From Ilumatobacteraceae bacterium (GTDB lineage: Bacteria > Actinomycetota > Acidimicrobiia > Acidimicrobiales > Ilumatobacteraceae): DNA of 64,000 nt. The stretch covers positions 1 to 64,000 of the forward strand of contig JAFMNE010000001.1 of assembly GCA_017859395.1 (NCBI GenBank), given 5' to 3'. The position numbers and the translations under genes are program-made. Position 1 is the stretch's first letter. Every line of letters starts with the position of its first letter. Under the pieces are notes generated by a model. It saw only the letters and a list, made by a program, of their open reading frames with translations. It was not told the origin of the DNA and did not search any database. Of this stretch, positions 60,126 through 64,000 are shown in pieces.

Positions 60126-61490
60126 TTAGAGGTCGTCGTAGTACTCGCGGCCAAGGTGGGTGATCGGCTCCTCGCCCATCATCCAACGCAGCGTGTTCTT
60201 CAACTTCGTGAGCTGGATGAACAGGTCGTGCTCTGGGTAGAGCCCGGGAGCCACCATCGGTGCCTTGTAGTAGAAACTGAGCCACTCTTGGATACCGCCG
60301 AGGCCGGCGCGGTGCGCCAGGTCGCTGAACAGCACCAGGTCGAGCGCGAGGGGGGCGGCGAGGATTGAATCTCGACACAAGAAGTCAATCTTCAACTGCA
60401 TCGGGTACCCCATCCAACCGAAGAGGTCGATGTTGTCCCATCCCTCTTTGTTGTCACCACGCGGCGGGTAGTAGTTGATCCGCACCTTGTGGTAGACGTC
60501 GCCGTAGAGCTCGGGGAAGCGATCGGGTTCCAAAATGTGCTCGAGCACGCCCAGTTTCGACTCTTCCTTGGTCTTGAAGTTGTCGGGGTCGTCGAGCACC
60601 TCGCCGTCGCGGTTGCCGAGAATGTTCGTGGAGTACCAACCGTTCAACCCCAGCATTCGGGCGCGGAGCATCGGCCCGATCACGGTTTTGATCAGCGTCT
60701 GGCCGGTCTTGAAGTCCTTGCCGGAGATCGGTACGCGCCGTTCGGCCGCCAGTTCGCGCAAGGCTGGGATATCGACGGTGAGGTTCGGTGCCCCGTTTGC
60801 GAAGGGGACGTCCTCGAGAATGGCGGCATAGGCGTAGAGCATCGAGGGGGCGATCGTCGGGTCGTTCGCATCGATGGCGGCGTCGAACGCTTCCAGCGAG
60901 GCATGCGCGGGGCCGGGCTCGATGAAGATCTCGGTCGATGCGGCCCAGAGCATGACCACCCGTTCGAGTTGGTTCTTGTCGCGGAACGCGGCGATGTCGG
61001 CGCGGATTGCCTCGAGCATCGCGCGTTTTGACACCGTGCCGATGGTGTTCTCGCCGTCGAGGCGCTTCACATATTCGCGGTCGAAGGCTGCCTTCATCGG
61101 CTGCACCGATCGCAGGGCGTCCGAGATCGCCTCGAGGTGACGGCCCGACTCGAGCACGCCGGCGCGTTGCGCGGCTACGTAGGCATCGTCGGGGAACGGA
61201 TCCCATGCACCGAACACGATGTCGTTGAGGTCGGCGAGTGGAACGAAGTCCTTGATGAGTGGGCTGCGGCCGTCGGTGCGCTTGCCGAGGCGGATGGTGC
61301 CCATTTGGGTGAGGGCACCGACCGGGGCAGCGATACCGGCCTTGGCGAGCTCGACACCGGCGATGAGGGTCGACGACACGGCGCCGAGGCCGACGGTGAG
61401 CACGCCGAGGCGTTGGGCGGGGGCGGGCGGCGACACCGGCGGGGGACCCGCGGTTGTGGGGTCGGTGGAACGTTCTTCAGATTCGGTCAC
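60126..61490 (-). CDS. ino1: Inositol-3-phosphate synthase (long type)
   Basis: A 454-residue NAD-dependent synthase converting glucose 6-phosphate to inositol 3-phosphate, the entry to inositol lipids and mycothiol. Seen: VGLGAVSSTLIAGVELAKAG (NAD loop), FGAWDPFPDDAY, ILEDVPFANGAPNLTVDIPAL (in parts), SGKDFKTGQTLIKT and LNGWYSTNILGN, KVRINYYPPRGDNKEGWDNIDLFGW. It is longer than mycobacterial Ino1 (about 365 residues) and is of the bacterial long class. The GTG start has TATCGT 6 nt upstream. It is divergent from the ilv leader. Confidence 0.92.
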   Translation of the reverse strand: MTESEERSTDPTTAGPPPVSPPAPAQRLGVLTVGLGAVSSTLIAGVELAKAGIAAPVGALTQMGTIRLGKRTDGRSPLIKDFVPLADLNDIVFGAWDPFPDDAYVAAQRAGVLESGRHLEAISDALRSVQPMKAAFDREYVKRLDGENTIGTVSKRAMLEAIRADIAAFRDKNQLERVVMLWAASTEIFIEPGPAHASLEAFDAAIDANDPTIAPSMLYAYAAILEDVPFANGAPNLTVDIPALRELAAERRVPISGKDFKTGQTLIKTVIGPMLRARMLGLNGWYSTNILGNRDGEVLDDPDNFKTKEESKLGVLEHILEPDRFPELYGDVYHKVRINYYPPRGDNKEGWDNIDLFGWMGYPMQLKIDFLCRDSILAAPLALDLVLFSDLAHRAGLGGIQEWLSFYYKAPMVAPGLYPEHDLFIQLTKLKNTLRWMMGEEPITHLGREYYDDL

Positions 61491-61496
61491 GGTCGC

Positions 61497-61502
61497 ACGA
61501 TA
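61497..61502 (-). promoter_or_regulatory. -10 element TATCGT for ino1
   Basis: TATCGT on the minus strand with a 6-nt spacer to the GTG; a strong TAnnnT match. Confidence 0.55.
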
Positions 61503-61554
61503 GGCGTTGTGACCGCCCGAATTGTGCACGCCACACCGAACAGGGCGCAGCGAC

Positions 61555-61583
61555 TTGTGATTGTGGTGTGACTCTGGCATGCT
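61555..61583 (+). promoter_or_regulatory. Promoter of the ilvB leader (TTGTGA - 17 nt - CATGCT)
   Basis: TTGTGA and CATGCT are separated by exactly 17 nt, and the -10 ends 7 nt before the leader GTG, so transcription should begin at or next to that GTG. Confidence 0.5.
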
Positions 61584-61590
61584 GTCGGGC

Positions 61591-61635
61591 GTGTACGCCG
61601 CCGTCACCCGCCTCGTAGTAGTAGTAGTCCGGTAG
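61591..61635 (+). CDS. ilvB leader peptide (regulatory, valine-rich)
   Basis: GTG opens a 14-residue peptide VYAAVTRLVVVVVR with one Leu codon followed by four GTA and one GTC Val codons, then Arg and TAG. GTA is a rare choice in this GC-rich genome, which would make the run sensitive to charged tRNA-Val. The longer in-frame ATG four codons upstream is possible, but it would start inside the predicted -10 box. A hairpin terminator and ilvB follow. Ribosome stalling on the Val codons when valine or leucine is short would permit transcription of ilvB, as in known leader-peptide attenuators. Confidence 0.75.
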   Translation: MYAAVTRLVVVVVR

Positions 61636-61669
61636 CGCACCGGCTCGTCAACGACCGCGTGCGCCTACC
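61631..61669 (+). promoter_or_regulatory. ilvB leader alternative RNA structure
   Basis: GGTAGCGCAC, overlapping the leader stop, pairs with GTGCG-CTACC (one bulged C) just before the terminator. Within its loop, AACGACC (61650-61656) is complementary to GGTCGTT (61686-61692) in the 3' arm of the terminator, a candidate antiterminator. The pairing choice between them is inferred by eye; energies were not calculated. Confidence 0.4.
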
Positions 61670-61700
61670 GACCTCCCAGCCGGGAGGTCGTTTGCTTTTT
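61669..61700 (+). terminator. Attenuator terminator before ilvB
   Basis: CGACCTCCC and GGGAGGTCG form a perfect 9-bp stem with a 4-nt AGCC loop, followed by TTTGCTTTTT. It is 33 nt past the leader stop and 58 nt before the ilvB start, with no gene ending here, so it can only serve as an attenuator. Confidence 0.85.
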
Positions 61701-61758
61701 CACCCCGTCACCCCGCCACGCCCACCCCCGAACACAACCCGCTGCCACAGGAGCAATC

Positions 61759-63537
61759 GTGAACACCGAGAATCAGATTTCAGAGGGACAGATCATGACC
61801 GGCGCTCAGGCGCTGATCCATGCTCTCGAGCTTGAAGACGTCGACACTGTGTTCGGCCTGCCGGGTGGATGCATCCTTCCGGCCTACGATCCGCTGCTCG
61901 AGTCGTCCATCCGCCATGTCCTCGTGCGCCATGAACAAGGTGCGGGCCATATGGCCGAGGGGTACGCCCATGTCAGCGGTCGACCGGGGGTCGCAATGGT
62001 CACGTCCGGCCCGGCGGCCACCAACTTGGTGACACCGCTGATGGACGCGTACATGGATTCGATTCCGATGGTGGCGATCACCGGGCAGGTCGGCACGGGT
62101 GCGATCGGTTCGGACGCGTTCCAAGAGTGCGACACGGTCGGCATCACGCGTAGTTGCACCAAGCACAACGAATTGGTGATGAGCGCCGATGACATCCCGC
62201 TCGCCATCCGCCAGGCCTTCCACATCGCCACCACCGGCCGCCCCGGTCCGGTTCTGGTCGACCTGCCAAAGGATGTGCTGCAGAACCAGATGTCATGGCA
62301 TTGGCCCACCGATGAGGAGGTGGCAGCATCGCTGCCCGGGTACCGCCCGACGTCAAAGGGTCATCCGCGGATGGTCGCTGAAGCGGCCCGCATGATCCTC
62401 GAAGCAGAACGCCCTGTTCTCTACGTCGGCGGCGGCATGTTGAAGGCTCGTGCCGCAGAAGTGCTGATGGAACTCGCCGAGCTGACCCAGATTCCGGTCG
62501 TGACCACCTTGATGGCGCGTGGCGTGTTCCCCGACAACCATCCGCTGTGTCTGGGGATGCCTGGCATGCACGGCACCATCGCCGCCACCACGGCGATGCA
62601 GCGCGCCGATCTGCTGATTGCACTGGGTGCGCGTTTTGACGACCGCATCACCGGGCGTCTCGATGGTTTCGCCCCCGATGCGCGCGTCATCCACGTCGAT
62701 GTCGATCCGGCTGAACAGGGCAAGGTGCGTCGTCCCGATGTGCCCATTGTCGGTGACTGCCGATTGGTCACCACCGACATCGTTGCGTCGCTGCGGTCGT
62801 TGCTCGATGGCGGTACCACTCAGGCCGATGTCGGGCCGTGGCGCAGCCAGATCTCCGGGTGGCAAGAGGTGTTCCCGCTGACCTATGACGCCGCGGAGCC
62901 TGGTGGCGCGTTGAAGCCGCAGTACTGCTTGGAGCGTCTGCGCGATTCGGCCGCACCGGGCACCATCGTTGCCTCTGGCGTGGGACAGCATCAGATGTGG
63001 GCATCGCTGCACTGGCATTTCAACGAGCCCTACACCTGGGTGAACTCGGGTGGTCTCGGCACGATGGGCTTCGCCATTCCCGCTGCGATCGGCGCCAAGA
63101 TGGCCCGCCCTGACGCCATGGTGTGGGCGGTGGACGGCGATGGCTGTTTCCAGATGACCGCCCAAGAGCTCGTCACCGCTGCTGTGGAGCGCATCCCGGT
63201 GAAGATTGCGCTGCTGAACAACTCCTATCTCGGCATGGTGCGCCAGTGGCAGGAGATGTTTTACGACGAGCGGTACAGCGAGGTGTATTTGTCTGTCGAC
63301 ACGCCGGACTATGTGAAGTGGGCCGAGTCGATGGGGTGTGTCGGCATCCGGGTCGAGTCACCCGAAGAGGTGCAGCCCGCGATCGACAAGGCGAACTCGA
63401 TCAATGATCGCCCGGTGGTCGTCGAGTTCCGCACCGATGCGTCCGAGAAAGTGTTCCCCATGGTTCCGGCGGGCTGCACGAACGATGACGTGATCGTCCA
63501 TCCCTCCCAGCAGGACCAGCGAGCCCAACTGGGCTGA
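61759..63537 (+). CDS. ilvB: Acetolactate synthase large subunit
   Basis: A 592-residue TPP- and FAD-dependent enzyme that makes acetolactate or acetohydroxybutyrate, the first common step of branched-chain synthesis. The catalytic Glu59 is in [18 protein letters not shown]-Mg motif [15 protein letters not shown] through [13 protein letters not shown]. The GTG start has AGGAG about 6 nt upstream; an ATG 12 codons later with a GAGGG site is an alternative. ilvN follows after 25 nt. Control by the upstream valine attenuator is likely. Confidence 0.96.
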
Positions 63538-63562: not shown

Positions 63563-64000
63563 ATGACCGCCATCAATCCACACGGTTCCTCGCTGAACCA
63601 TGCGATCCTCTCCGTGCTTGTGCAGAACCGGCCGGGCGTGCTTGCCCGGGTGTCGAGCCTGTTCGCTCGTCGCGGTTACAACATCTTCTCGTTGGCGGTT
63701 GCACCCGCCGAGGACGATGCTCAGAGCCGCATCACCATCGTCGTCGATCTTGAATCGGCCCCACTGGAGCAGATGGTGAAGCAACTGTTCAAGTTGGTGG
63801 ATGTGGTGAAGATCTCTGAATTGGATCCCCGTCGTTCGATCGAGCGCGAACTGCTGCTGGCCACGGTCCGTGCCGGGTCGAGTGAGCGGTCGCAGATCGT
63901 CGAACTGGTCAATATCTTCGAAGCCAAGATTTTGGCTGTTGGAGGTGACGCTCTGACGGTGAGCCTGGAGGGGCACCCCGACAAACTGGATGACTTCGAG
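63563..64000 (+). CDS. ilvN: Acetolactate synthase small (regulatory) subunit, partial
   Basis: The first 146 residues are visible before the window ends. The N-terminal ACT domain reads ILSVLVQNRPGVLARVSSLFARRGYNIFSLAV (in parts), the valine-binding feedback domain, then SRITIVVD and a second alpha/beta region with VELVNIFEAKILAVGGD. It activates IlvB and confers feedback inhibition by valine. AAAGGCAG lies before the ATG. It is the next gene of the ilvBN operon, and ilvC probably follows beyond the edge. Confidence 0.94.
   Translation, partial: MTAINPHGSSLNHAILSVLVQNRPGVLARVSSLFARRGYNIFSLAVAPAEDDAQSRITIVVDLESAPLEQMVKQLFKLVDVVKISELDPRRSIERELLLATVRAGSSERSQIVELVNIFEAKILAVGGDALTVSLEGHPDKLDDFE

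Follow-up and report, generated by a model that had tools for sequence, protein, structure and literature searches.

The region upstream of the acetolactate synthase genes ilvBN in the analysed stretch of DNA (64,000 nt from an Ilumatobacteraceae bacterium, hereafter the window) raises the question of whether a short frame rich in valine codons controls these genes, and by which RNA structures it would do so. We consider it likely, at roughly 80%, that transcription of ilvBN is attenuated here by a ribosome-mediated mechanism that responds to the level of charged tRNA-Val (and tRNA-Leu). The features are listed in Table 1; ilvD lies 5 kb upstream of the leader region. The window genome is distributed over 95 contigs, and its named relatives, as found by IlvB, are mostly Ilumatobacteraceae and other Acidimicrobiia.

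Table 1. Features of the ilvBN leader region in the window.
Feature	Position	Strand	Basis
-35 element TTGTGA	61555..61560	+	conserved TTG(C/T)Gn, 17-18 nt from the -10 in most family loci
Extended -10 TGGCATGCT, hexamer CATGCT at 61578-61583	61575..61583	+	family consensus TGGCACACT
Predicted transcription start, on the G of the leader GTG (putatively leaderless)	61591	+	promoter spacing, no Shine-Dalgarno
Leader peptide VYAAVTRLVVVVVR*, 14 codons and stop TAG	61591..61635	+	sequence; position and branched-chain amino acid content conserved in relatives
Control codons CTC GTA GTA GTA GTA GTC	61612..61629	+	GTA enrichment, 66% vs 4.7%
Stop-codon hairpin A (sensor, probable antiterminator)	61631..61669	+	folding; covariation; shuffles
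Intrinsic terminator hairpin CGACCTCCC-AGCC-GGGAGGTCG, 9 bp, -17.3 kcal/mol	61669..61690	+	folding, covariation
Terminator U-tract TTTGCTTTTT	61691..61700	+	sequence
ilvB Shine-Dalgarno AGGAG	61749..61753	+	anti-Shine-Dalgarno duplex -6.6 kcal/mol
ilvB, acetolactate synthase large subunit, start GTG	61759..63537	+	NF005860 892 bits (cut-off 881), TIGR00118 752 bits (cut-off 538)
ilvN, acetolactate synthase small subunit, truncated by the window end	63563..64000	+	NF008864, TIGR00119 above cut-offs

The leader reads GTG TAC GCC GCC GTC ACC CGC CTC GTA GTA GTA GTA GTC CGG TAG. GTA makes up only 4.7% of the Val codons in the window genes. Among 108 non-redundant leaders, by contrast, it accounts for 66% of the Val codons within the final six positions, and 96 of these leaders end with UAG. 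Across the loci, the Val/Leu/Ile run preceding the stop is kept and the N-terminus of the leader drifts. The branched-chain codons expected of a ribosome-mediated attenuator of the trp/his/ilv type are thus present, as five Val codons in the window, and recur class-wide. C. glutamicum and M. tuberculosis likewise use GUA for control (PMC11857589; PMC13236596).

As in trp/his/ilv attenuators, the leader and the first gene are separated by an intrinsic terminator. Such strong terminators are scarce, with 6 others in the 464 kb of the window and three family genomes. An earlier note, made from the window sequence alone, had described a 14-codon leader with five consecutive Val codons (four of them GTA) after one Leu codon, followed by a 9-bp GC-rich terminator with a T-run and then the ilvB ribosome site; these elements are all borne out, and the reading as valine-codon, ribosome-mediated attenuation of ilvBN is supported. 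The terminator core is nearly always CCTCCC...GGGAGG in the family of the window and neighbouring families, and CCCTCC or CCCCTC in other families. As a side aspect, the CCTCCC/GGGAGG core (61672-61677 and 61682-61687 in the window; columns 52-56 and 67-71 of alignment A1) is more invariant than pairing demands, and its 3' arm resembles a Shine-Dalgarno sequence and its 5' arm an anti-Shine-Dalgarno sequence.

The earlier note had named absence of the element from close relatives as one of the observations that would overturn its claim. In the relatives that we examined, leader and terminator recur, and the claim survived. A script found both in 82 of 90 ilvB loci of the family (Ilumatobacteraceae-like), with the leader 23-33 nt before the terminator. 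Among the other eight loci, three were too short upstream (L002, L004, L055), one was cut yet keeps the leader end and the terminator (L082), and four show the element by eye (L009, L010, L051, L060). For the rest of the class, the script detected leader and terminator in 60 of 76 sampled loci, and the element was seen by eye in L103, L108, L109, L111, L119, L126, L130, L134, L152, L161, and L170, which the script had missed; it is absent in L133, L142, L143, L146, and L153, and the script match at L137 is implausible. At L133, ilvB directly follows the apparent end of ilvD, and there is no attenuator. Leader and terminator are found in 72 of the 78 named loci, and the element recurs in most of the Acidimicrobiia families tested. 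Several loci stem from metagenome-assembled genomes with short contigs. Four loci with Acidimicrobiia-type ilvB and leaders carry the titles Bifidobacterium breve, Ferrithrix thermotolerans, Thermoanaerobacterales, and Acidobacteria (L186, L195, L213, L225), and these genome names look wrong.

We then considered how translation of the leader would begin. A distance of about 7 nt between a -10 element and the transcription start is usual. In 74 of the 82 family loci, the -10 TGGCANACT, which in most cases has TTG(C/T)G 17-18 nt before it, lies 5-10 nt before the leader start codon, which is ATG or GTG, and in 41 of them the distance is exactly 7 nt; the transcript should therefore begin at or beside the start codon. 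The window conforms to this pattern, with TTGTGA, 17 nt, CATGCT, and 7 nt to the leader GTG. The -10 element occupies the position at which a Shine-Dalgarno sequence of the leader would be expected, and pairing of the leader with the anti-Shine-Dalgarno sequence is negligible (-2.5 kcal/mol versus -6.6 kcal/mol at ilvB). A generic sigma-70 scan of the window returned no promoter at the leader because the -10 TGGCANACT departs from TATAAT, and it was conservation that revealed the promoter. Leaderless initiation, which we infer from the promoter spacing and the lack of a Shine-Dalgarno sequence, is thus a well-supported prediction, in agreement with the promoter coordinates and the probably leaderless start that had been proposed for the leader GTG. 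Family f21 of the class differs from the usual spacing, as 25-32 nt separate its -10 from the leader start.

The key element of the attenuator, which the earlier note had missed, is a hairpin between stop codon and terminator, termed hairpin A, that is present in nearly all members. In the window, its 5' arm overlaps the leader stop codon and its 3' end abuts the terminator, with which it shares one nt. Across 141 loci (5th-95th percentile), the 5' arm begins -3 to 0 nt from the end of the stop codon, and a gap of 0-5 nt, with a median of 2, separates hairpin A from the terminator. Compared to shuffles, hairpin A folds with a median z of -4.3. When 64 diverse loci were aligned, both-sided changes were seen in 11 of the 12 consensus pairs of hairpin A and terminator, which occurred in 0 of 500 shuffles, and 102 cells with both-sided changes were observed versus 34 in shuffles and 5-16 with the partners slid. 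Ordinary terminators are a weak background for abutting hairpins, as 464 kb contained only six strong ones, of which two had an abutting hairpin, and we therefore relied on the shuffles (88% versus 39%).

We searched 61 genomes of the class with a covariance model of the post-stop hairpin and the terminator, from which all leader codons except the last one were left out. Matches were obtained in 52 genomes. Among 23 secondary loci, one of them in the window genome, which were chosen among the stronger matches and to which the leaders were assigned after the match, 20 have leaders with residues that match the gene downstream; the remaining three (L383, L386, L388) look spurious. Eight secondary loci precede citramalate synthase (cimA) and have leader ends such as IIIIL, IIIC, IIIIR, IIIIA, and IIIID. 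These poly-Ile leaders come from several families of the class (L371-L374, L379, L382, L343, L345), with MSASIIIIA and MNASTASAAVAIIIIR as examples. Seven loci precede 2-isopropylmalate synthase (leuA), with LLLLT, LLLLM, LLLR, and LLLT, and five precede 3-isopropylmalate dehydrogenase (leuB), with VIIIE, IVIIR, VIVIS, IIVIV, and VVITT. The leuA attenuator of the window genome (L318; G000:C77:69114-69180, minus strand) has the leader MNAIADRREFLLLLT, with TAGCCT located 8 nt upstream of its ATG, and a hairpin that is followed at zero distance by a GCCCCC/GGGGGC terminator. Hairpin and terminator are 0-4 nt apart in the cimA, leuA, and leuB leaders. Seven representative downstream proteins were assigned by NCBIfam from N-terminal fragments, with scores that are below the full-length cut-offs and clearly best for the respective families, and the others were assigned by evident similarity to these seven; the citramalate synthase at L345 was judged from leader and family only, as the longest frame shown there is another one.

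CimA belongs to the isoleucine branch and LeuA to the leucine branch, and LeuB serves leucine as well as, via the citramalate route, isoleucine. Upstream of leuA, Actinobacteria are also known for the LEU element, a conserved pseudoknot. The class thus appears to have a set of leaders whose residues match the gene, with Val/Leu at ilvB, Ile at cimA, Leu at leuA, and Ile/Val at leuB. As the leader residue fits the pathway of the gene downstream, this is the strongest evidence for a working attenuator. The set would amount to a small regulon with one shared RNA architecture, through which every branched-chain gene senses its own amino acid. We found no paper on a poly-Ile leader at citramalate synthase in the open-access literature searched. 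The leuB-like genes (L375, L376, L378, L384, L389) have Ile/Val rather than Leu leaders, which suggests control by the citramalate (isoleucine) route.

On this basis, the attenuator may operate as follows. RNA polymerase would start at the leader GTG, and a ribosome would load on the leaderless 5' end of the transcript. With ample valine, the ribosome would reach the UAG stop, where its footprint would cover the 5' arm of hairpin A and thereby block this hairpin, and the terminator 24-33 nt downstream would fold freely, ending transcription before ilvB. With valine in short supply, the ribosome would stall within the GTA codons, 6-18 nt short of the stop; the exposed hairpin A would fold, abut or slightly invade the base of the terminator, and impair it, and the polymerase would read on into ilvBN. 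Valine shortage should hence switch on genes for valine, leucine, and isoleucine synthesis. The ribosome states and the role of hairpin A as antiterminator are deduced from this arrangement. As hairpin A and terminator are predicted to coexist in the window despite the shared nt, folding of hairpin A alone would not antiterminate without an added steric or kinetic effect.

Among the possible explanations of antitermination by hairpin A, we favour a steric block, which would require no base-pair competition. A hairpin A helix that ends 0-5 nt from the terminator stem could not thread into the exit channel of the polymerase, and the lower terminator stem could therefore not close. A study in E. 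coli (PMC4824070) reports almost full repression of a terminator positioned a few base pairs behind a gene, with recovery as the distance grows, which would be compatible with a bulky neighbour blocking a terminator. An abutting, non-overlapping layout with a gap of 0-4 nt also occurs in about 25 ilvB leaders of other families of the phylum, including Streptomyces-type leaders (MRTRILVLGKRVG) and Mycobacterium-type leaders with LVVI. That steric antitermination is the rule for ilvB, cimA, leuA, and leuB across Actinomycetota, including Streptomyces and Mycobacterium, we propose tentatively and with considerable doubt. If true, it would be a principle of antitermination that is distinct from the mutually exclusive folds of the trp and his attenuators.

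The published model for M. tuberculosis is of this mutually exclusive type, and the corresponding view of our element would be that hairpin A, extended from the last leader codons, displaces the 5' arm of the terminator when the ribosome stalls. In the genus of the window, hairpin A indeed reaches across CGG-UAG and occupies one or two nt at the start of the terminator, and in family f4 the hairpin lies deep in the terminator (e.g., L122 and L125). In most clades, however, hairpin A and terminator do not overlap and both fold together. When stall folds were computed for all loci with the ribosome placed on the first Val codon, the pairs of the lower terminator stem still had a mean probability of 0.90, and simple competition is therefore not general. 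Neither terminator arm has a conserved pairing partner in the leader or between stop and terminator; the mean duplex energy of the 5' arm is -3.4 kcal/mol with the stop-to-terminator stretch and -6.0 kcal/mol with the leader. As mutually exclusive folding of antiterminator and terminator was tested in the window and not found, we keep the element apart from the classical trp/his/ilv-type attenuators, and we regard displacement of the terminator arm as a serious but unlikely explanation. Family f4 (L121, L122, L125, L128, L131, L135) has leaders that run 4-5 codons beyond the Val run, and together with the deep invasion of the terminator in L122 and L125, this looks like a classical overlapping antiterminator that evolved or was retained in one family.

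Hairpin-induced pausing of the polymerase is a feature of the trp leader. Hairpin A could likewise only delay the polymerase until the ribosome has closed up, with another element being responsible for antitermination; in favour of this, a hairpin just upstream would pause the polymerase inside the terminator. The idea nevertheless appears improbable to us, as pausing by itself yields no antitermination, and no other alternative pairing is conserved, including partners of the terminator 3' arm. The earlier note had proposed such a partner in AACGACC (61650-61656), whose seven bases are complementary to 61686-61692. This antiterminator has to be rejected with near certainty: among the 82 family loci, the motif occurs only in two genomes of the same genus (L001, L003), and in the stalled state the forced structure has -22.3 kcal/mol versus -40.4 kcal/mol, a cost of about 18 kcal/mol. 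Finally, that the terminator is merely the constitutive end of a short RNA or upstream transcript, with a coincidental Val run, has next to no probability given that the nearest gene upstream points the other way, on the minus strand, and given the class-wide conservation, the GTA bias, and the matched Ile/Leu leaders at cimA and leuA.

Returning to the attenuator reading, we compared the window with known systems. A search of Rfam gave no match beyond chance for 61300-61900 and none in 16 relatives, and the window element matches no model of an ilvB-linked RNA, a T-box, or a ppGpp riboswitch. Mycobacterial polycysteine attenuators have a leaderless short open reading frame with a run of codons for one amino acid, as is predicted for the window. 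They differ in that no conserved intrinsic terminator was found there (PMC1262725), whereas termination is expected in the window. The same study reported in 2005 candidate leaders and terminators upstream of ilvB for Corynebacterium, Mycobacterium, and Streptomyces, and the window attenuator should work like the ilvB attenuators of these genera. We came across no publication on such elements for Acidimicrobiia in the open-access literature searched, and the present data would extend leaderless leader-peptide attenuation to this largely uncultured class.

The novelty that had been seen in leaderlessness is not upheld, as Corynebacterium and Streptomyces already provide examples of leaderless ilvB leaders. 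For the C. glutamicum ilvB leader MTIIRLVVVTARRLP, the transcription start is one nt from the start codon according to Morbach et al. (2000), as cited in PMC11857589, and S. lividans ilvL is a mapped leaderless branched-chain amino acid leader (PMC8079986); because of these precedents, leaderlessness and a poly-Val run are not new in kind. The C. glutamicum ilvBNC attenuator (ilvL; ilvB-II motif, Narunsky et al., 2023) shares with the window a branched-chain amino acid leader with VVV, the GUA control codon, and a terminator before ilvB; it is leaderless, as is predicted for the window, and its leader translation and Val dependence are proven (PMC11857589, PMC10272879). In C. glutamicum, however, it is the leader that folds into the first hairpin, and the proposed antiterminator pairs with the 3' side of the terminator, whereas the sensor hairpin in the window starts from the stop codon and lies directly against the terminator.

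The Streptomyces ilvBHC leader resembles the window in being leaderless, which is a prediction for the window, in its branched-chain amino acid codons, and in a hairpin that abuts the terminator with zero gap in the fold, and differs in its longer hairpin and fewer control codons. Codon changes in the S. coelicolor ilvB leader were without effect (PMC1262725), which counts against the codon-sensing reading; a steric mode of antitermination may help to explain these ambiguous results. In M. tuberculosis, mutation of the LVVI codons abolished induction (PMC13236596). The ilvB1NC operon of this organism has GUA among its LVVI control codons and a terminator, like the window, but a 166-nt leader and a published model of mutually exclusive structures. 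Mycobacterium-type ilvB relatives share with the window a strong hairpin that abuts the terminator (0-1 nt), and they differ in a longer peptide and a stop codon inside the hairpin. The comparison bears on the M. tuberculosis ilvB1 attenuator, which is now studied as a point of drug vulnerability. In four Mycobacterium-type loci (L277, L278, L280, L284), antiterminator and terminator are predicted to coexist with a gap of 0-1 nt, against the published exclusive model.
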